A stretch of DNA of 64,000 nucleotides from Flavobacterium ovatum (GTDB lineage: Bacteria > Bacteroidota > Bacteroidia > Flavobacteriales > Flavobacteriaceae): contig NZ_CP160035.1 of the NCBI RefSeq assembly GCF_040703125.1, positions 1,674,001-1,738,000 on the forward strand, written 5' to 3'. Below are positions 1,316 to 11,587 of this stretch, one piece after another (the first letter of the stretch is position 1; each line of letters begins with the position of its first letter). The position numbers and the translations under genes were made by a program. Below the pieces are notes generated by a model, which was given only the letters and a program-made list of their open reading frames with translations, was not told the DNA's origin and ran no database searches.

Positions 1316-4300
1316 TTAGTTCTTCGCCGTCCAAAAATGTCTTAAATCCAAAGTGTAAGGGTATTCAGGATTGATTAACTCAATTGGAGTATCGTGTTTT
1401 AAGTCCGATTTTGATTCGACCAAAAATCTAGAAGTAGCTGTACTATTGGCGGGTGTCTCAATTTCTTTGTCTTCCATTGCTGAAGCAGGAGTGTGGCCAA
1501 AATCCCAAAAACGACTCATTTTTCTTGATTCAGCTTCAAAACTATTTACCGGTAAAGTATCAAAACTACGTCCTCCAGGATGCGTTACAAAATAAGTACA
1601 TCCACCAATAACTTTATTGTTCCAAGTATCTACCAAGTCAAAAACTAATGGTACATCAATACCTATATTCGGATGCAATGCGGATGGTGGGTTCCAAGAT
1701 TTATATCGAATTCCGGCAACATATTCTCCTTTTGTTCCTGTGCTTCTTAGTGGGATTCTACAACCTTTGCATAGTAAAATATGTCTTTCGGGTACAATTC
1801 CAGAAACTTTTACTTGTAATCTTTCGAGCGATGAATCCACAAAACGAGAAGTTCCAGTACTTGAAAGTTCTTCTCCTAATACATGCCAAGGTTCTATCCC
1901 AAGTCTGATTTCCAACTGAATATTGTCAATCGTCACCGTTCCATGATGTGGGTATCTAAACTCAAAGAATGGGTCAAACCAAGAAATATCAAAGTTATAT
2001 CCAGAATCTTTTAAATCATTAACTACGTCAATCATATCTAGATAAGCGAAATGTGGCAATAAAAATTTATCATGCAATTCAGTTCCCCAACGGATTAGTT
2101 TTTTCTCGTACGGTTCTTTCCAGAATTTAGCTACCAAGGCGCGAACTAATAAATTTTGAACCAAATTCATGTGTTTGTGTGGTGGCATATCAAAAGCACG
2201 AAGCTCTAATATCCCCAATCGTCCCGTCGAAGAATCAGGAGAATATAATTTGTCGATGCAAAATTCAGTTCTATGCGTGTTTCCTGTAATATCGGTCAAT
2301 AGATTTCTGAAAATTCTATCCACCATCCAAAACGGTACTTCCTTGTCTTTCGGAATTTGATCAAATGCAATTTCCATTTCATATAATTTCTCGTCTCTTC
2401 CTTCATCAATACGAGGTGCTTGGCTCGTTGGTCCAATAAATGGTCCAGCAAATAAGTAACTCAATACTGGGTGATGTTGCCAGTAGGTAATTAAACTTCG
2501 TAGCAAGTCTGGTCTTCTCAATAACGGACTGTCTTCTGGTTTTTCAGCACCAAGAGTTACGTGATTTCCTCCACCGGTTCCTGTGTGGCGACCGTCCACC
2601 ATAAATTTATCCGTTCCTAAACGAGATAAAAAGGCTTCTTCATATAATGCAGTGGTGTTGTCTACAATTTCTTGCCATGTTTTAGCAGGATGTACATTTA
2701 CCTCAATAACACCAGGGTCAGGAGTTACCATCATTTTCTCAACACGGTAATCCGATTTAGGTTGGTACCCTTCAATACGTACCGGCATTTGTAGTTTTTC
2801 AGCCGTATTTTCAATAGACGTAATTATGTCAATATAATCCTCTAAATAATCAGTAGGAGGAAGGAAAATGTATATAATCCCATCGCGTTCTTCTATACAC
2901 ATTGCTGTGATGAAAGTATCCACCTCAAATAATAATGGATTTTTTTCTTTTTCTTTGGTTTCTTTTTTAGTTAAAATTAGTTTGGCTTTTTCAAACATTT
3001 TAACAATAGTCCCATAACGTTTTTTAACTTTTTCGTCATAGTCGCCCAATGGTGATAGGTCTTCAAATGGACTTCTATCAACAACTGATTCTCTTACGTT
3101 TTTGGATGTTTTTGGCAGTGAATCCAAAGGTAAGCGCAAACCAATTGGAGAGTTTCCAGGAATTAGGAAACAGTTACCGCGTCTAAATTCCCATGCACAA
3201 CTTTCCCAATGATCGGCTACATGGTCTTTTCGTAATGGCAATACAAATCCCGAAGGATTGTTTAATCCTTTTTCAAGAGTCTTAGCCAGATTGTGTCGTT
3301 GGATAGAATCTTTTAGGTCTACTTTTAGTGGATCTAAATTGATCGGGAGTTTACCTTCTTCTAATGCCCAGTAAATAGGGTCTTCATAAGTAGGTGTGAT
3401 GTTTTGAGTATCAATACCTAAAAATTTAGTCAGTTCGTTAGCGAATTTTTCAGCATCATGAAAAGTAAATGTGCTTTCGCCTTCTTTGGCTACTAATGCG
3501 TCATTTTTCCATAATGGCAAACCATCTTTTCTCCAGTACAATCCATATTGCCAACGAGGGAATAATTCTCCAGGATACCATTTTCCTTGACCAAAATGCA
3601 ACAAACCGCCATGAGCAAATCGTTTTTTTAATCGTAGCGCTAAATCGTAGGCTAGCCTGCGTTTCATTGGTCCGTCGGCTGTGGTGTTCCATTCGTCCGC
3701 TTCGTAATCATCTATCGAAACAAAGGTTGGTTCTCCGCCCATCGTTAAACGAACATCGCCTTCGATTAAATCTCTTTCAACCACATTTCCAACTTCCATG
3801 ATGTCGTTCCACTGGTTGTCAGAGTAGGGTTTAGTCACGCGTGGATCTTCGTGAATGCGGGTTACTTTGTTTTCAAAATCAAAACTAACTTCACATTTTC
3901 CAGTTGCACCCGTTACAGGGGCAGCACTTTCATAATGTGGTGTACAGCATAATGGGATATGTCCTTCGCTGGCAAAAAGTCCAGAAGTAGGGTCCAGACC
4001 AATCCATCCAGCTCCGGGTAAATATACCTCTACCCAAGCATGTAAATCGGTAAAATCCGTTTCAGGTCCTGATGGGCCATCAAGAGATTTTTGGTCTGGT
4101 GCCAATTGTACAATGTAACCTGATACAAAACGAGCGGCCAACCCAAAATGGCGTAATACGTGAATGAGTAACCATGCAAAATCTCTGCATGAGCCACTCT
4201 TGATGCGTAGGGTTTCTTCAGGGGTTTGTACCCCAACTTCCATTCGTAAATTATAGGTAAGCTCTTTGTAAACGGCTTGATTAATATAGACTAGAAAATC

Positions 4301-4729
4301 ATTAGTTGGTAGTGATTTCGTTAGCTTTAGACCATCCATGAATTTTAAGAAAACAGGGCTTTCTTCGGTTAATGGAAGGTAGGCTGTTAGTTCTTGTTGT
4401 AGTGTTTTGTCATATGTAAATGGGAATTGCTCAGCATATTCTTCTACAAAAAAATCAAATGGATTGATGACTTGCAATTTTGCAATGACCTCTACTTCAA
4501 CTTTTAATTCTTGAACAGGATCTGGAAAAACCACTCGAGCTTGATAGTTTCCAAATGGATCTTGTTGCCAATTAATGAAATGATTTTCAGGACTGATTTT
4601 AAAGGTGTATCCTTCTATTTGAGTCCTAGAGTGTGCCGCTGGTCGAAGCCTAAAAACATGAGGGAATAATTTAACAGATCGGTCAAATGTATAGGTTGTT
4701 TTGTGTGAAATAGCAATTTTAACAGCCAT
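1316..4729 (-). CDS. Transglutaminase-like protein fused to DUF2126 putative amidoligase
   Basis: A 1137-residue cytoplasmic-looking protein without signal peptide. Residues 1-90 match the bacterial transglutaminase N-terminal beta region (HKTTYTFDRSV). The transglutaminase/cysteine-protease core follows with a full triad: Cys181 (GSCRDF), His230 (DLHAW), Asp246 (GLDPTSG). From about residue 320 (RLTMGGEPTFVSIDD) to the end is DUF2126, classed as a putative glutamine-synthetase-like COOH-NH2 ligase. The family is thus predicted to make or break amide/isopeptide bonds; substrate unknown. It lies 147 bp downstream of a second transglutaminase on the same strand and near the divergent ATP-grasp/alpha-E and third transglutaminase genes. 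Length is normal for the fusion. Confidence 0.88.
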   Translation of the reverse strand: MAVKIAISHKTTYTFDRSVKLFPHVFRLRPAAHSRTQIEGYTFKISPENHFINWQQDPFGNYQARVVFPDPVQELKVEVEVIAKLQVINPFDFFVEEYAEQFPFTYDKTLQQELTAYLPLTEESPVFLKFMDGLKLTKSLPTNDFLVYINQAVYKELTYNLRMEVGVQTPEETLRIKSGSCRDFAWLLIHVLRHFGLAARFVSGYIVQLAPDQKSLDGPSGPETDFTDLHAWVEVYLPGAGWIGLDPTSGLFASEGHIPLCCTPHYESAAPVTGATGKCEVSFDFENKVTRIHEDPRVTKPYSDNQWNDIMEVGNVVERDLIEGDVRLTMGGEPTFVSIDDYEADEWNTTADGPMKRRLAYDLALRLKKRFAHGGLLHFGQGKWYPGELFPRWQYGLYWRKDGLPLWKNDALVAKEGESTFTFHDAEKFANELTKFLGIDTQNITPTYEDPIYWALEEGKLPINLDPLKVDLKDSIQRHNLAKTLEKGLNNPSGFVLPLRKDHVADHWESCAWEFRRGNCFLIPGNSPIGLRLPLDSLPKTSKNVRESVVDRSPFEDLSPLGDYDEKVKKRYGTIVKMFEKAKLILTKKETKEKEKNPLLFEVDTFITAMCIEERDGIIYIFLPPTDYLEDYIDIITSIENTAEKLQMPVRIEGYQPKSDYRVEKMMVTPDPGVIEVNVHPAKTWQEIVDNTTALYEEAFLSRLGTDKFMVDGRHTGTGGGNHVTLGAEKPEDSPLLRRPDLLRSLITYWQHHPVLSYLFAGPFIGPTSQAPRIDEGRDEKLYEMEIAFDQIPKDKEVPFWMVDRIFRNLLTDITGNTHRTEFCIDKLYSPDSSTGRLGILELRAFDMPPHKHMNLVQNLLVRALVAKFWKEPYEKKLIRWGTELHDKFLLPHFAYLDMIDVVNDLKDSGYNFDISWFDPFFEFRYPHHGTVTIDNIQLEIRLGIEPWHVLGEELSSTGTSRFVDSSLERLQVKVSGIVPERHILLCKGCRIPLRSTGTKGEYVAGIRYKSWNPPSALHPNIGIDVPLVFDLVDTWNNKVIGGCTYFVTHPGGRSFDTLPVNSFEAESRKMSRFWDFGHTPASAMEDKEIETPANSTATSRFLVESKSDLKHDTPIELINPEYPYTLDLRHFWTAKN

Positions 4730-4876
4730 AAATATCGAGTTTTTAGTTTCTAAAATTTCAATAAAAATACGGTATTAATATTGTTAACCCATAAAAAACA
4801 GGCAGCTATAATAATAAATATCAGAATGATAATTTATAGTGTATAATGTTGTAGATAATGTAAATTTTTTTATTCT

Positions 4877-5719
4877 TTAATAAGATATGAAAAAATCTTC
4901 AGAAGGATAGGTGTTGTCAGATTCTCCGTTTGTTTGCGAACATTCAATATTCATATAAGTACAGAAGGCATTTCCAAAGAGTGTTGCCACTGCAATTTCT
5001 GAGCCGTCTTTACCATCTGCAATTTTGACTAGCTGATTTAAATTGGCCAATCTTGTTGGGTCAAAAACAATCCATGAATTGCCTAGGTATGCTTCGAAAC
5101 AAGCATGAATATCCGGAGGGACAATATTGCTAGCATAGCAGGTAAAATAGCGTGCAGGAATATTTAAGGCTCTACAAAGTGCAATTCCCAGATGAGCAAA
5201 ATCTTTACAAACACCTTCTTTTATATTGAGGGTGTCATAAGCAGTTGTATTTGCATCAGAGGAACCACTTACATACTTGATGTTGTTAAAAATCCATTCG
5301 TTAATTGCTAATGTTTTTTCTAAATCGGTTGTAATATGGCCAAAGAGATTAAAAGCAAATTCCATTAATTTATCCGAAGGACAATTTCGTGTAGGGGTAA
5401 GAAAGGGGATGATTTCATTCTTTAAATTAAATATAGGGGTATTTTTTAAAAGTTTCTTTTTTGCGACCCATTTATAACTTACGTCAATTTGTGCTTGGTA
5501 ATTGATGGTAAATGGAATGAATTCTGTAGCTTGTAATTTTATAAAACGAGTTTTTGAACCTTTTAAGCTGTATTCCTTGTAGGGTAAGAAAGGGGATACT
5601 TCGAGTGTTTCGGATTTTATTTTTTGATTTACAGACTCCTTTAGTACTTGTATATTGAAAACGAATGTAGTGGGAGCGTATACATCGTACTGAATTGTTG
5701 TCTTAAGTGTGAATTCCAT
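4877..5719 (-). CDS. Transglutaminase-like cysteine protease family protein
   Basis: A 280-residue protein with an N-terminal beta region and a transglutaminase core. The triad is Cys171 (GVCKDFAH), His205 (DIHACF) and Asp220 (VFDPTR). There is no signal peptide, so it probably acts in the cytoplasm. It is divergent from the ATP-grasp/alpha-E gene (84 bp between starts) and upstream of the DUF2126 fusion on the same strand. In such clusters these proteins are thought to act as peptidases or amide transferases on a product of the ATP-grasp ligase; that role is inferred from neighbourhood, not shown here. Confidence 0.85.
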   Translation of the reverse strand: MEFTLKTTIQYDVYAPTTFVFNIQVLKESVNQKIKSETLEVSPFLPYKEYSLKGSKTRFIKLQATEFIPFTINYQAQIDVSYKWVAKKKLLKNTPIFNLKNEIIPFLTPTRNCPSDKLMEFAFNLFGHITTDLEKTLAINEWIFNNIKYVSGSSDANTTAYDTLNIKEGVCKDFAHLGIALCRALNIPARYFTCYASNIVPPDIHACFEAYLGNSWIVFDPTRLANLNQLVKIADGKDGSEIAVATLFGNAFCTYMNIECSQTNGESDNTYPSEDFFISY

Positions 5720-5774
5720 AAAGTAAAAGTACTAATATTGAGGATAATCGAACGGCTTTTCTTTAAAAAAAATG

Positions 5775-5782
5775 TAGATTTG
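5775..5782 (+). promoter_or_regulatory. -7 promoter element for the ATP-grasp/alpha-E gene
   Basis: TAGATTTG, an exact match to TAnnTTTG, 22 bp before the ATG at 5804. The 84-bp divergent region also holds a weaker minus-strand match (TACTTTTA, 5724-5731) for the transglutaminase gene, so the cluster is probably expressed from one divergent promoter region. Confidence 0.5.
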
Positions 5783-5803
5783 TTTTTACTTTAAAAACCA
5801 TAA

Positions 5804-8386
5804 ATGAGCACGCCATTATCTTTTATAGATTCATATAAAAAAACGATTAAGTCATACGATGAAGTTATTGATAAAAACGGACAAGTAAAACCCCATTGGG
5901 CAACCCTTTTTGAAGCCTTAGAAGCGGTAGGTATGGAGGAGTTGGCTATTCGAAATAAAGAAATTGTTAATAAACTCAAAGAAAATGGAGTTACCTATAA
6001 TGTATATGATTCTGAAACAGGATTGGTACGCCCTTGGAAATTAGATCCGATTCCTTTTATTATTCATCAATCGGAATGGGCTACTATTGAAAAAGGTCTT
6101 ATTCAACGAGCTAATTTATTGGATTTAATCTATAAAGATATTTATGGAGAGCAGCTTTTAATTAAAAATAATATTATTCCGGCTGAATTAGTTTACGATA
6201 ATACAGGTTTTTTAAGACCTTGTTTTGATGTCAATCAAAAGGATTATCATCAGCTTACTATTTTAGCTTGTGATATCGCTAGAGGTCCAGATGGTAAAAT
6301 GTGGTTGTTGGATAATCGGGTTCAATCGCCTTCAGGTACAGGATATGCACTTGAAAATAGGATTGTAATGGCGAATGTTTTTCCAAAATTAAATAAAAAT
6401 ATTCACCGTAGTAAATTAGGGCCTTATTTTAATGAATTGCAAAAGACCGTTGGGAAATTTGGAACCAATTCAGACAATCCTAATGTAGTATTTTTATCTC
6501 CCGGTGAAGGAAATGAAACGTACTTTGAGCATGTATACCTTTCCTCTTATTTAGGGTATACCTTAGTTGAAGGAAGTGATTTATTGGTTCGAGAAGGCTA
6601 TGTTTGGTTGAAAACCATTGATCAATTAGAGCGTGTAGATGTAATCATCAAGCGTGTAGATGATTTGTGGTGTGACCCTTTAGAATTGAATAGTAATTCG
6701 CTTCTAGGGATACCAGGTTTGTTGCAGGTGATGCGTTTAGGAAATGTGACGGTTATTAATCCTCCAGGAATAGCCGTTTTAGAGAATCATGGATTGATGG
6801 CTTTTATTCAAAATGCGTGTAAATTTTTATTGAAAGAGCCTTTAATTATGAATTCTACCGCTACTTGGTGGTGTGGACAAACTAAAGAATTAAATTATGT
6901 TCTGAATAATTTACCTAAATTAATTATTAAAAAAACGAATAGAAATTTAGGTGTGAAATCGATTTACGGGCGTAAATTAAATGAGGAAGAATTAAAGGAA
7001 CTCAAAATAACCATTTTAAAAAACCCTAAAGAGTTTGTTGCTCAAGAAGAGGTTAGCCTGTCTACAACACCATCTTTAATCGATGGGGAAATTGTTCCTA
7101 GACTAGCTGTAATTAGGGCTTTTTTGATTTCGGATGGGAAGAATTATAAAGTTATGCAAGGGGGGTTAACCCGTAGTTCTGTGATTGAAGATAAATTTCA
7201 GATATCGAATCAATTTGGAGGCATATCTAAAGATACTTGGATTATTACAGATAATTTAAAGGAACAACTCGAAGAGGAGGAACAGAAGGAACAGATAATT
7301 GAGATTAAAAAATCAAATCAAGTTTCTCGTAGTACAGCTCTAACGAGTAGAAACGCTGAGAATTTATTTTGGGTAGGAAGATTGTCTGAGAGAACCATGG
7401 TTTTAACGGGTTTTCTTAAAATTATTTTTAGCAGATTAAACGAAAATGTAAGTAATCACGGAAAAAAACAACCGGAGTTTCTAATAGTTTTATTAAAGGC
7501 TTTGACACATCTGACGCAATCCTATCCTGGGTTTGTAGGTGAGGATGGAGTAGAAGATGAAACTGTTTTTGAAAAACCATTGGCAGAATTAATTTCACTT
7601 ATTAAAGATCCTGAAAAAGAAGGTTCTGTTGCTTATAATGTGCAGTCGTTGTTGTATTCTATCAATCACATCAGTGAAAAATGGAATCATGATACCAAAA
7701 GAATTATCAGCCTTATAGAAGATAGTTTGACGGGGCTAAAAGAGTCGAATGCTAATAATCTTAGTAGAACTACTCATGGTTTAGATAAATTATATATCCG
7801 AATGATGGCGTTTTATGGTAATACCTATGAAACATTACCAAGGGAGAATGGATTTTTTCTATTTGAAGCCGGAAAAAATATTGAACGATTCTTGTCGCTT
7901 ATTTCGGTTATTCAAACCTTATTCTGTTTTAAAAGGAGCGATGAGGTGGAGCAACTTTTATTGGAATCAGTACTTGAAAATCATAATTTGTTGGCTCAGT
8001 ATAGAAGTATTTATAAATCTCAAATTAGTTTGGTGGCTGTAATTAATATGTTGTTCTTAGAGAAAAACTCTCCTTACACGCTGGCGTATATTCTGGATAC
8101 ACTTTCATACAATATTGGTCAATTACCAAAAAAATCAGAATTGAACCAGTTAAGTATTGCTGAAAAGAAAGTGCTAGAAGCCAGTACTATAATAAAATTA
8201 ATTGACCCGGAGGAATTAGTTCAGGCTGATGAAGCAAATTACAGAGAAGTTTTGGATGAGACTATTAATGTCGTTTCTAACCTTCTTTCTTCTGTAACCA
8301 ATGGATTATCTAGTTTGTATTTTAATCACTCGGTGATGCAACTTTCCTTTTTAGACACTGAAAAAATTGATTCTGATGAAGTATAA
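5804..8386 (+). CDS. Circularly permuted ATP-grasp / alpha-E domain fusion protein
   Basis: An 860-residue protein. The first ~490 residues are a circularly permuted type-2 ATP-grasp domain (formerly DUF404/DUF407), a predicted carboxylate-amine ligase that forms amide bonds with ATP. From about residue 506 to the end is the alpha-E (DUF403) domain, recognised by the ENLFWVGRLSER stretch with its conserved ER near 528-529. In many bacteria the two domains are separate adjacent genes; the fusion fits a joint function. It overlaps the following transglutaminase gene by 11 bp, so both are one translational unit. Likely role: ATP-dependent synthesis of a peptide or peptide-like modification with unknown product. 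Confidence 0.88.
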   Translation: MSTPLSFIDSYKKTIKSYDEVIDKNGQVKPHWATLFEALEAVGMEELAIRNKEIVNKLKENGVTYNVYDSETGLVRPWKLDPIPFIIHQSEWATIEKGLIQRANLLDLIYKDIYGEQLLIKNNIIPAELVYDNTGFLRPCFDVNQKDYHQLTILACDIARGPDGKMWLLDNRVQSPSGTGYALENRIVMANVFPKLNKNIHRSKLGPYFNELQKTVGKFGTNSDNPNVVFLSPGEGNETYFEHVYLSSYLGYTLVEGSDLLVREGYVWLKTIDQLERVDVIIKRVDDLWCDPLELNSNSLLGIPGLLQVMRLGNVTVINPPGIAVLENHGLMAFIQNACKFLLKEPLIMNSTATWWCGQTKELNYVLNNLPKLIIKKTNRNLGVKSIYGRKLNEEELKELKITILKNPKEFVAQEEVSLSTTPSLIDGEIVPRLAVIRAFLISDGKNYKVMQGGLTRSSVIEDKFQISNQFGGISKDTWIITDNLKEQLEEEEQKEQIIEIKKSNQVSRSTALTSRNAENLFWVGRLSERTMVLTGFLKIIFSRLNENVSNHGKKQPEFLIVLLKALTHLTQSYPGFVGEDGVEDETVFEKPLAELISLIKDPEKEGSVAYNVQSLLYSINHISEKWNHDTKRIISLIEDSLTGLKESNANNLSRTTHGLDKLYIRMMAFYGNTYETLPRENGFFLFEAGKNIERFLSLISVIQTLFCFKRSDEVEQLLLESVLENHNLLAQYRSIYKSQISLVAVINMLFLEKNSPYTLAYILDTLSYNIGQLPKKSELNQLSIAEKKVLEASTIIKLIDPEELVQADEANYREVLDETINVVSNLLSSVTNGLSSLYFNHSVMQLSFLDTEKIDSDEV

Positions 8387-9245
8387 ATTAGTACATAAAA
8401 CGACCTATACGTACGTAAATGCAGTGCATAATTATCAATGTATCATTTGTTTACATCCTGTAAATTCTGTTTCGCAAGTGTGCGAAGATTATAAGTTAAC
8501 AATTGAGCCCAAGCCTCAGAATTTATATCCAAGAAAAGATTATTTCGATAATACTAAGTACTATTTTTCAATTTTAAAACCCCATAAAGTACTACAGGTA
8601 ACTGCTACTAGTATAGTTGAGGTGTTTCCTTCTAAGTTATTATTTGTTAATTCAATTTCTTGCGAAGCGGTATTGCATTTGTTTAGAACCAAATTGGCTT
8701 TAAAAAATGAATTACTACAATACCAACTTCCAAGTCCATTTATTTTTTGGGATGATGAAATTAAAACTTTTGCGGAAAGTTGTTTGATCGCTGACACACC
8801 TTTTTATGAAGCAATAGCAAAGTTGTCTTCAAAGATCTTTACCGATTTTGAATTCAATTCTGGAGCGACTAACTTAAATACGCCATTAAAAACTGTTTTG
8901 AAAGAACGTAAAGGAGTCTGTCAAGATTTTACTCATTTGATGATTGCTTGCCTGCGAAGTTTAGGTTTTGCTGCTCGTTATGTTAGTGGTTATTTAGAAA
9001 CTTTGCCTCCAAAAGGGAAAGTTAAACTACAAGGTTCTGATGCTTCACACGCTTGGATTTCCGTTTATGTACCAGAAATGGGTTGGTGTGAATTTGACCC
9101 TACTAATAATATCATTCCAGGAGAACGTCATCTTGTTACGGCATATGGTCGTGATTATTCGGACATATCTCCCTTAAAAGGAATAATTTTTAGCTCAGGT
9201 GAACATCGCGTTAAGGTGGAGGTTGATGTGATTCCATTGGGGTAG
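8376..9245 (+). CDS. Transglutaminase-like protein, third copy of the cluster
   Basis: A 289-residue protein with the N-terminal beta region (KLVHKTTYTYVN) and a transglutaminase core with Cys182 (GVCQDF), His225 (DASHAW) and Asp241 (EFDPTN). I chose ATG 8376 instead of the TTG at 8367 because MKYKLVHKTTYTY is the usual start of this family; it then overlaps the ATP-grasp gene by 11 bp. It is closely similar in layout to the N-terminal part of the DUF2126 fusion (same HKTTYT start, same HAW and FDPT contexts), which suggests duplication inside the cluster. Cytoplasmic; exact reaction unknown. Confidence 0.87.
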   Translation: MKYKLVHKTTYTYVNAVHNYQCIICLHPVNSVSQVCEDYKLTIEPKPQNLYPRKDYFDNTKYYFSILKPHKVLQVTATSIVEVFPSKLLFVNSISCEAVLHLFRTKLALKNELLQYQLPSPFIFWDDEIKTFAESCLIADTPFYEAIAKLSSKIFTDFEFNSGATNLNTPLKTVLKERKGVCQDFTHLMIACLRSLGFAARYVSGYLETLPPKGKVKLQGSDASHAWISVYVPEMGWCEFDPTNNIIPGERHLVTAYGRDYSDISPLKGIIFSSGEHRVKVEVDVIPLG

Positions 9246-9364: not shown

Positions 9365-10195
9365 ATGAAAGTAAGAAGGCAATCTGGAGATAGTGTCGAT
9401 TATGACCCCGAAAAATTGAAAAGATCTCTTTTGAATTCAGGGGCAAGCGTAATTGTTGTGGATAAAATTTTGCAAAAACTAACTAATGAGGTTTATGATG
9501 GTATCACAACTAAAAATATTTACAAAAAAGCATTTAGTCTACTGAAAAAGAATGCTAATTTTCATGCTGCAAGATATAACGTAAAAACGGCTATACATTT
9601 GCTTGGTCCCGCAGGATTTTACTTTGAACAATATATTGCTCGGATTTTTGAATCTGAAAAATATGAAGCCATAACTAATTTAACGCTACAAGGTAGGTGT
9701 GTTTCGCATGAAGTGGATGTATTGGTAAAAAAGAATGATCGTATTGCAATGATTGAGTGCAAGTTTCACGGTAGTAAAGAAGCAGCCTCAGACGTAAAAG
9801 TTCCCATGTATATTCTTTCTAGGTACAATGATCTGAAGCAAGTAAGCCATAAAATTTTTTCGCAAAAAGATCAAATTTCTGAATGTTGGATTGCTACTAA
9901 TAATAGATTTACTTCTGATGCAAAAGATTTTGCAATATGTAATGATATAAAATTATTGAGTTGGGACTATCCTAAAGATAACAGCATAAAAGTTAAGAAT
10001 TATCGTGACTGTCTTTACCCTGTGACCTGCTTAACTACTATTACTTTAGCTGAAAAAGAAAAATTGTTGTCATTAGGCGTTATTTTGGCTAGAGATTTAA
10101 CGACTAGTCCAGAGAAATTAAGTGAAATTATGATAAGTCCAAGAAGGGAAAAGAATATTTTAAAAGAGGTTACAGAGCTTTGTAGATGTTTTTGA
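9365..10195 (+). CDS. ATP-cone domain protein with restriction-endonuclease-like fold
   Basis: A 276-residue protein. Residues 1-90 resemble an ATP-cone (MKVRRQSGDSVDYDPEKLKRSLL...), the nucleotide-sensing module of ribonucleotide reductases and NrdR. Residues ~100-180 have the Mrr-like nuclease signature: EVDVLVKKNDRIAMIECKF, with the Asp...Glu-x-Lys pattern expected of PD-(D/E)XK enzymes. It precedes a beta-CASP metallohydrolase by 36 bp on the same strand, so the two are probably co-transcribed. No methyltransferase is nearby, so a classical restriction-modification role is unlikely; nucleotide-gated cleavage of nucleic acid is a possible reading. Confidence 0.78.
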   Translation: MKVRRQSGDSVDYDPEKLKRSLLNSGASVIVVDKILQKLTNEVYDGITTKNIYKKAFSLLKKNANFHAARYNVKTAIHLLGPAGFYFEQYIARIFESEKYEAITNLTLQGRCVSHEVDVLVKKNDRIAMIECKFHGSKEAASDVKVPMYILSRYNDLKQVSHKIFSQKDQISECWIATNNRFTSDAKDFAICNDIKLLSWDYPKDNSIKVKNYRDCLYPVTCLTTITLAEKEKLLSLGVILARDLTTSPEKLSEIMISPRREKNILKEVTELCRCF

Positions 10196-10231: not shown

Positions 10232-11587
10232 ATGAAAGTAAAATTTATAGGAGGAGCAGGAACCGTAACAGGTTCTAAAACCTTGATAGAAACTAGCGAA
10301 ATGTCGATTTTGATAGATTGTGGACTTTTTCAAGGGATTAAACCGTTAAGGGAACTCAATTGGGAGCCTTTGCCCGTTTTAGCCTCTTCAATAGACGTGG
10401 TTTTGTTAACTCATGGACATTTAGATCACTGTGGTTGGTTGCCAAGACTTGTGAATCAAGGATTTGAAGGAAAGATTTATTGTACTGGTCCCACAGCAGC
10501 TGTGGCGAAATTAATCATATTAGATAGCGCTAAAATTCAAGAAGAAGAAGCTGAAAAAGCAATTAAAGAGAAATATTCGATACATGAAATACCAGAACCT
10601 TTATATACAGTAGAACAGGCTAAGAAGGTGTTTCCTCTTTTTAGTGTGGTACAACCTGGTGAAAAACTTATTTTGGAAGACGGAAGCGAAGTTATTTTTA
10701 ATCTGGTAGGACATATTATTGGCGCTTGCAGCATCAGTTTATTTGCCGAAGGGAAAACATTGGTATTCTCTGGTGATGTTGGTAGAGATGATGATGTGTT
10801 GCTTTTTCCTCCGACAAAACCCAAAGTGGCTGATTATATTTTTCTTGAAAGTACGTATGGTGACAGATTACATCCTGATACTGATGCCAAATTAGAATTG
10901 GAGTTGTATGTTAATAAGACTGTTAGTAATGGAGGTACGGTTATTATACCCAGTTTTGCAGTGGAACGGGCTCAAAGTGTAATGTTTTTATTGTGGCAAT
11001 TAAAAAATGAAAATAGGATTCCTGACGTGCCTTATATAGTGGATTCACCAATGGGAGCAAGTGCTTTTGAAGTTTTTTTTAATAATACCAAATGGCATAA
11101 GTTAACATTGGCAGATTGTCAATCGATGTCAAAAATGTTTGCTATTAACGCTGATTACCAAGAAACATTGGCGGCTATTAATGATAAAGGACCTAAAGTT
11201 GTGATTGCCGCTAGTGGAATGATAACAGGGGGACGTGTTTTGAGTTATTTAGTAAATTATATTGGTATTCCAGAAACAACGATCATTATAGTTGGATATC
11301 AAGCAGAAGGAACTCGGGGTAAAAAATTAATAGAAGGTGCGAAATCCATAAAAATTTACGGAAATTATTATAATGTAAAAGCTAAGATATTACAAATTCA
11401 AGGCTTGTCAGCTCATGGTGATCAACATGATTTGTTAGGCTGGCTTTCGGACTTAGAAACTAAACCGAAAAAGATTTTTTTAGTTCATGGTGAGAATGAA
11501 CCAGCTGATGCTCTTCGGATAAAAATAAAGGAAATCTATGGTTATGACTGTACAATTCCTTTGATGGGCCAGGAAAGAAAGCTGTAG
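10232..11587 (+). CDS. Beta-CASP metallo-beta-lactamase-fold RNase-like protein
   Basis: A 451-residue cytoplasmic protein of the CPSF73/Ysh1-like group. The metal site motif H61-x-H63-x-D65-H66 (THGHLDHCGW) is intact, followed by FSGDVGRDD, the beta-CASP region and the C-terminal RNA-specificity (RMMBL) segment with ASGMITGGR and LSAHGDQ. The family contains endo- and exonucleases acting on RNA or DNA. It follows the ATP-cone nuclease-fold protein by 36 bp, so a joint nucleic-acid task is possible, but it is not shown. Length is usual for the family. Confidence 0.88.
   Translation: MKVKFIGGAGTVTGSKTLIETSEMSILIDCGLFQGIKPLRELNWEPLPVLASSIDVVLLTHGHLDHCGWLPRLVNQGFEGKIYCTGPTAAVAKLIILDSAKIQEEEAEKAIKEKYSIHEIPEPLYTVEQAKKVFPLFSVVQPGEKLILEDGSEVIFNLVGHIIGACSISLFAEGKTLVFSGDVGRDDDVLLFPPTKPKVADYIFLESTYGDRLHPDTDAKLELELYVNKTVSNGGTVIIPSFAVERAQSVMFLLWQLKNENRIPDVPYIVDSPMGASAFEVFFNNTKWHKLTLADCQSMSKMFAINADYQETLAAINDKGPKVVIAASGMITGGRVLSYLVNYIGIPETTIIIVGYQAEGTRGKKLIEGAKSIKIYGNYYNVKAKILQIQGLSAHGDQHDLLGWLSDLETKPKKIFLVHGENEPADALRIKIKEIYGYDCTIPLMGQERKL

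Follow-up and report, generated by a model that had tools for sequence, protein, structure and literature searches.

A cluster of four adjacent genes in Flavobacterium ovatum very probably belongs to the DUF2126-type amidoligase systems predicted by Iyer et al., in a rearranged form. The cluster lies at positions 1316–9245 of the window, by which we mean the whole 64,000-nucleotide stretch analyzed here (contig NZ_CP160035.1, positions 1,674,001–1,738,000, from a 4.25-Mb genome in a single contig). It encodes a DUF2126 fusion protein, a fusion of ATP-grasp and alpha-E domains, and two smaller transglutaminase-fold proteins, T1 and T2. Iyer et al. 2009 are said to have predicted amidoligase systems built from a circularly permuted ATP-grasp, alpha-E, a transglutaminase fold and a DUF2126 protein resembling glutamine synthetase (GS), often together with the Ntn-hydrolase Anbu. 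ATP-grasp, alpha-E, transglutaminase and DUF2126 are all present and linked in the window; unlike that system, however, the window set has no detected Anbu, a fused ATP-grasp/alpha-E pair, divergent halves and an extra Bact_transglu_N_2 protein, T2. What is new is this divergent variant, with no Anbu detected and T2 replacing a protein-glutaminase; the kind of system had been predicted before. The initial annotation had proposed an undescribed system, a label that must be withdrawn, as the architecture is of the type of Iyer et al. 2009 and members have already been studied. The features of the cluster are as follows.

1316..4729, minus strand: DUF2126 fusion, Bact_transglu_N plus transglutaminase core plus DUF2126 putative amidoligase (1137 aa; Pfam)
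1340..3898, minus strand: DUF2126 domain, residues 278–1130 (Pfam, alignment)
3899..4729, minus strand: transglutaminase-fold part of the DUF2126 fusion, residues 1–277, with C181/H230/D246 (Pfam, alignment)
4730..4876, no strand: 147-bp gap from T2 to the DUF2126 fusion, both genes on the same strand, a possible operon (coordinates)
4877..5719, minus strand: T2, Bact_transglu_N_2 plus transglutaminase core, with C171/H205/D220 (280 aa; Pfam, alignment)
5720..5803, no strand: divergent intergenic region, 84 bp (coordinates)
5804..8386, plus strand: ATP-grasp/alpha-E fusion, circularly permuted ATP-grasp (type 2) plus alpha-E (860 aa; Pfam, match to PDB 3n6x)
6053..7177, plus strand: ATP-grasp domain, residues 84–458 (Pfam)
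7340..8323, plus strand: alpha-E domain, residues 513–840, with the ER motif R526/E529/R530 (Pfam, alignment)
8376..9245, plus strand: T1, Bact_transglu_N plus transglutaminase core, with C182/H225/D241 (289 aa from the ATG; Pfam)

The coordinates bear out the initial annotation, which had described four adjacent genes with an 11-bp overlap (8376–8386) and an 84-bp divergent gap (5720–5803). The start of T1 was taken as the ATG at 8376; the list of open reading frames (ORFs) has an upstream TTG at 8367. Pfam assigned PF08379, PF01841 and PF09899 (1294 bits) to the DUF2126 fusion, PF21295 and PF01841 to T2, PF14403 (453 bits)/PF04174 and PF04168 (136 bits) to the ATP-grasp/alpha-E fusion, and PF08379 and PF01841 to T1. 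This content agrees with the amide-chemistry domains, predicted by comparative genomics, that had been proposed for the cluster.

We then assessed conservation of the active sites. All three Cys-His-Asp triads pointed out in the initial annotation were invariant in aligned relatives: C181/H230/D246 in 51/51 DUF2126 fusions (the window protein, 43 of 53 non-redundant sequences and 7 from plasmid records), C182/H225/D241 in 27/27 T1 proteins (window T1 and 26 of the 45 in the transglutaminase list) and C171/H205/D220 in 7/7 T2 proteins. Within DUF2126, the motifs GGEP (331–334), GKWYPGE (382–388), PG-x-x-EVN (672–678), GGG-x-H (719–723) and E842-x-R844 were kept in all 50 of the 51 aligned proteins that reach this region; the Halomonas protein (L162) ends after 283 aa, and its DUF2126 part was scored as a gap. 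The ATP-grasp residues R172, E184, E242, R284, D286 and D287 were invariant in 37/37 aligned fusions (the window protein and 36 of 47 non-redundant sequences), and in the alpha-E domain R526 and R530 were found in 37/37 and E529 in 35/37. A general loss of ligase active-site residues, which the annotation had raised as an objection to its own proposal, is thus not what the aligned sets contain: their catalytic motifs are invariant.

The transglutaminase fold also covers proteases, amidases and deamidases. We propose that DUF2126 and the circularly permuted ATP-grasp, to which alpha-E is fused as a partner, would each use ATP to activate a carboxylate for coupling to an amine, giving an amide or isopeptide in the cytoplasm, while the three transglutaminase-fold domains would treat the same bonds in reverse, by hydrolysis, deamidation or transfer. 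The cycle would serve nitrogen economy, being switched on at nitrogen shortage in the relatives studied; in the window, T2 would substitute for the protein-glutaminase-like enzyme that sister loci have, with no need for Anbu. To this mechanism as a whole, an ATP-driven cycle of amide ligation and thiol hydrolysis in nitrogen economy whose chemistry, substrate, direction and role we infer, we assign a probability of roughly 0.4.

A cytoplasmic site for the four proteins is probable, as judged from their sequences. In 19-residue Kyte-Doolittle windows, their hydropathy reached at most 1.45 overall and 0.66 at the N-terminus, and no hydrophobic signal or membrane segment was seen in any of them by hydropathy, a signal-peptide predictor not having been run; the cytoplasmic location and lack of export signals noted earlier agree with these values. 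Such proteins make a poor fit to a cell-surface or capsule modification system, for which the Caulobacter transglutaminase homologue HvyA offers a precedent in that it prevents capsulation (PMC10274813; here and below, papers are cited for the sections available). No polysaccharide family was matched among the nine window proteins scanned with Pfam either, and we regard a surface role as very unlikely.

Next, we analyzed gene neighborhoods. When genome contigs were scanned at the protein level, 430 relatives were confirmed. The best 80 of them, the window and four further genome loci make up a set of 85 loci; 63 of these have at least 4 kb on both sides and form the full-flank set, which leaves out 22/85, the window among them. 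The ATP-grasp/alpha-E fusion was near DUF2126 in 58/63 full-flank loci and T1 was close to it in 58/63, so the co-occurrence in relatives that the initial annotation had proposed to check is borne out. In two of the five loci without the fusion (L009 and L059), ATP-grasp and alpha-E are encoded by separate genes, an arrangement found at 13/85 loci and 10/63 full-flank loci. In the canonical order, DUF2126, ATP-grasp/alpha-E and T1 are co-directional and T2 is absent; this core order recurs in Bacteroidota, Pseudomonadota and Acidobacteriota, for example in Marinobacterium (L080, L082) and Granulicella (Acidobacteriota). Divergent split halves with T2 between them were observed at 6/85 loci (the window, L010, L011, L013, L014 and L017), all from Flavobacterium, and also in the genomes G154, G407 and G328, the last with a contig carrying only T2 and the ATP-grasp part and with DUF2126 on another contig. 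G154 and L010 are probably one strain, because their T2 proteins are identical. A four-gene order conserved across Bacteroidetes, which the initial annotation had suggested looking for, was accordingly rejected, being confined to these six loci of a Flavobacterium clade and the three additional genomes, whereas the canonical cluster is three co-directional genes without T2.

Canonical loci of Flavobacterium, Emticicia and Dyadobacter encode homologous proteins, with DUF2126 fusions 72–89% identical to that of the window, but they are co-directional and lack T2, whereas the window cluster is divergent and has it. Identities and trees were computed for a subset picked by hand from the 69 loci having all three genes. 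Between the divergent clade and eight co-directional Flavobacterium loci, the DUF2126 fusion was on average 86% identical, as it was among those eight (86%). The corresponding values for the ATP-grasp/alpha-E fusion were 67% between the groups and 83% among the co-directional loci, and for T1 64.5% and 83%. Because the identities disagree between genes, the right half of the cluster (ATP-grasp/alpha-E and T1) appears to have evolved separately, perhaps through replacement or faster change.

The divergent and co-directional clusters also differ in a further hydrolase. In nine other Flavobacterium or Flavobacteriaceae loci, a Gln_deamidase_2-like gene follows the co-directional cluster; the nine proteins form one sequence cluster, of which a single member, from L055, was run against Pfam (Gln_deamidase_2, E 1e-18). 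The catalytic Cys was present in 7/7, the His in 8/8 and the Asp in 9/9 of the ORFs reaching the respective site. The protein-glutaminase family (Gln_deamidase_2, PF18626), a Cys-His-Asp thiol enzyme, adjoins T1 in sister loci; T2 itself does not match PF18626 (no Pfam hit at E 0.01). Among the 17 Flavobacterium/Flavobacteriaceae loci, two end too early to be read, and the remaining 15 carry either T2 (6 loci) or the Gln_deamidase_2 protein (9 loci), never both. PF18626 was not found in the window's genome, but the control genomes were also empty, so absence is not proven; the T2 tree was too poorly resolved to date the swap. The question is narrowed by a variant in which no Anbu was detected and the hydrolase is swapped: the conserved core comprises DUF2126, ATP-grasp/alpha-E and T1, and the further hydrolase is replaceable.

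A more specific version of the proposed cycle is a reversible amide-nitrogen store, in which the ligases would spend ATP to load amide or isopeptide bonds onto cellular proteins or peptides and an exchangeable thiol-hydrolase slot would release amines or ammonia when nitrogen runs short. Depending on lineage, this slot may be filled by an Anbu-linked transglutaminase, T2, a protein-glutaminase or a metallopeptidase, and the T2-for-glutaminase swap of Flavobacterium would point to a deamidase in it. We consider such a store improbable in this particular form.

PDB 3isr matches T2 over residues 1–264 (E 3e-88). Beyond a variable linker, the protein ends in DFFISY (window:4880–4897), identical in the 6 Flavobacterium cluster copies compared and absent from four Anbu-linked Bacteroidota relatives; this end is possibly a docking or modified tail. 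Across 296 Bacteroidota genomes, Bact_transglu_N_2 exceeded the cut-off at six places, of which four directly adjoin Anbu and the other two belong to the divergent DUF2126 cluster. Across 209 Flavobacterium genomes it did so at eight: 3 adjoin the ATP-grasp/alpha-E fusion, arranged divergently, and 5 stand alone within about 1.5 kb; the neighbors of two of these five copies had nothing obvious in common. A circularly permuted ATP-grasp was present in all 7 Flavobacterium genomes with an over-cut-off T2, including 4 whose sole T2 stands alone, the background in the genus being available only by proxy (alpha-E in 4/18 Flavobacterium genomes of the Bacteroidota draw). No Anbu was found in those 7 genomes, in a scan set without any positive genome. 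T2-type enzymes therefore seem tied to the ATP-grasp system more than to Anbu. A constant tie of T2 to Anbu was considered and rejected, with 4/6 Bacteroidota copies adjoining Anbu, 2/6 lying in DUF2126 clusters, and no Anbu found by that scan in the Flavobacterium genomes.

Systems of this kind occur in several phyla, with patchy inheritance and a link to a relative of the proteasome. DUF2126 was found in 12/296 Bacteroidota and 11/209 Flavobacterium genomes; among the same Bacteroidota genomes, alpha-E was present in 118/296 and Anbu in 21/296. Alpha-E accompanied 12/12 DUF2126, 21/21 Anbu and 5/5 over-cut-off PF21295 genomes (hypergeometric p = 1e-5, 1e-9 and 0.01, respectively, with kinship ignored), and in DUF2126 clusters the co-occurring alpha-E is often the cluster's own. 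Anbu occurs in 6 of the 12 DUF2126-bearing Bacteroidota genomes. Two Anbu queries detected none among the cluster genes or in the window's genome; the first was positive in 21/296 Bacteroidota genomes, and the second was run on 7 genomes only, none positive. We therefore did not class the window set as an Anbu operon. The Anbu operon of Pseudomonas putida and Yersinia bercovieri shares with the window a circularly permuted ATP-grasp, alpha-E and a transglutaminase, but, as far as the available descriptions go, it has Anbu and no DUF2126, whereas the window shows the reverse. The window's genome also carries a second, separate ATP-grasp/alpha-E/transglutaminase locus (L126:6248–9637, at about 676.2–679.6 kb), beside which no Anbu or DUF2126 was found.

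Reportedly, protein tagging was the idea of Iyer et al.: the two ligases would attach an amino acid or peptide to proteins, and the transglutaminase domains (and, elsewhere, Anbu) would remove or degrade this tag. Later papers recount that proposal as a peptide-synthesis or tagging system (PMC5666114, PMC6376114, PMC3597751), the first two also recounting the architecture. Ligases and hydrolases are indeed co-inherited, Anbu is a relative of the proteasome (PMC5666114), and a zinc metallopeptidase of the PF15887 kind occurs at 6/85 loci and in a Caballeronia cluster. However, no tag gene was recognized among the ORFs of at least 80 aa at the loci, Anbu went undetected in the window's genome, and it lacked peptidase activity in vitro (PMC6376114, available sections). 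On balance, tagging appears unlikely.

The ligases may instead belong to a small-molecule pathway, making a free amide (a gamma-glutamyl, polyamine or citrate amide) with the transglutaminase folds as its amidases. PDB 3n6x, the sole solved ATP-grasp relative found with an E value of 0.1 or less, matches residues 15–483 of the ATP-grasp/alpha-E fusion (E 8e-82) and bears the name putative glutathionylspermidine synthase; a citrate synthase gene occurs at 8/85 loci, all from Methylobacter or Methylococcaceae. Conversely, no non-core neighbor in the ORF clusters is widely common to the loci, though most neighbors are unannotated, and known Gln_deamidase_2 enzymes act on proteins; we find this pathway doubtful. 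At those eight loci (L065:3874–5184 and seven others), the citrate synthase gene comes after DUF2126, and the ATP-grasp fusion is next in 7/8; in L077 the contig ends.

The proposed role in nitrogen economy draws on homologous operons elsewhere. In a nitrogen-limited ntrC mutant of Burkholderia cenocepacia, the NtrC-regulon genes I35_5080-83 changed by log2 −8.2, −9.4, −9.4 and −6.0 (PMC5491218); they encode an ATP-grasp, alpha-E, a transglutaminase and a large transglutaminase protein, as in the window. Another B. cenocepacia record (L132) has the order ATP-grasp, alpha-E, transglutaminase, DUF2126 fusion (51% identical to that of the window), and because the order is the same, the large protein is most likely a DUF2126 fusion. 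In L132 the DUF2126 fusion comes after separate ATP-grasp and alpha-E genes and before a fused pair and T1, and no separate T2-type gene is among the matches. Its stand-alone transglutaminase, at about 7400, reads GTSRD where relatives have G-x-C-x-D, so that the Cys appears replaced by Ser.

Under nitrogen limitation, PP_2686-2688 of P. putida rose 11- to 15-fold in the wild type, and a mutant showed increases of up to 37-fold (PMC7801951); PP_2685/PP_2688 were up by log2 4.4/4.0 on nitrate versus ammonium (PMC8050072). In marine metagenomes these domains were associated with urea-metabolism domains (PMC3597751). The idea of a transglutaminase yielding ammonia in nitrogen starvation was raised in PMC6376114, which also reports phosphate release from ATP by a homologous ATP-grasp, the sole activity shown in the literature seen, to the extent of the sections available. 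On a plasmid of Acidithiobacillus caldus (L135:843–15435), two Anbu genes and a DUF2126 cluster are neighbors of ntrC and glnL; the DUF2126 gene is in two pieces about 1.4 kb apart with a 422-codon ORF between them, and insertion sequence (IS) transposases lie in the stretch. Together, the NtrC data on homologous operons and the variant described here single out a growth condition and a few candidate reactions for Flavobacterium.

Several observations weigh against the proposed cycle. The nitrogen evidence comes entirely from Pseudomonadota, none of it from Flavobacterium. In P. putida, two of the three strains showed changes of only 1.12- and 1.45-fold in PP_2685 (Anbu) (PMC7801951), and sigma-54 dependence is not uniform, because PP_2686-2688 still rose in an rpoN mutant (same source). 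For the Y. bercovieri operon, the available sections of PMC6376114 report Anbu without peptidase activity and no operon complex. T2 need not work at this cluster, because 5/8 Flavobacterium T2-family places stand alone. In the divergent region (5720–5803), sigma-70-type promoter-like matches did not exceed those in shuffled sequences, other promoter types not having been scanned. Lastly, comparison of the DUF2126 profile with glutamine synthetases by hhalign gave a probability below 1%, which is not significant.

The force of this last comparison is limited. The positive control, GS III against GS I/II, scored 98.1%, and E. coli GshA alone against GS only 2.1% and 1.0%. GshA is an accepted relative of GS, and because it too scored so low, the profile comparison is unable to exclude a relation between DUF2126 and GS. 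The best local alignment with E. coli GS placed PGVIEVN on AGQNEV and GGGNHVT on GSGMHCH, which we treat as a lead rather than a test. A search of PDB sequences with the DUF2126 HMM returned no GS; two transglutaminases came first, followed by two lincosamide resistance proteins at E 0.075. The literature searched gave no account of what DUF2126 does; PMC13207237 and PMC8407117 name an ATP-grasp gene of this kind, but just in tables or lists.

Turning to the surroundings, the GC content of the cluster is 0.355, compared with a mean of 0.337 (standard deviation 0.013) in windows of equal size, and no terminator-like site was found in 4600–6000. Adjoining the cluster, the gene at 9365–10195 encodes an ATP-cone-like N-terminus (below cut-off) and an Mrr-type nuclease domain; a homologue adjoins T1 also in L013 and L014. 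The beta-CASP nuclease at 10232–11587 scored 370 bits against the type VII CRISPR Cas14 model, whose cut-off is 800, and is probably an ordinary beta-CASP RNase. Among the other loci, a family without a Pfam match (L063:8443–9807) lies near the cluster at 5/85 (L061, L063, L066, L077 and L078). A record titled as a Helicobacter pylori metagenome-assembled genome (L079) encodes a DUF2126 protein 57–58% identical to that of the window, and its title may be wrong. An IncFII plasmid of Enterobacter roggenkampii (L134:5603–14794) carries, near arsC, consecutive genes for ATP-grasp, alpha-E, the DUF2126 fusion, the ATP-grasp fusion and T1.

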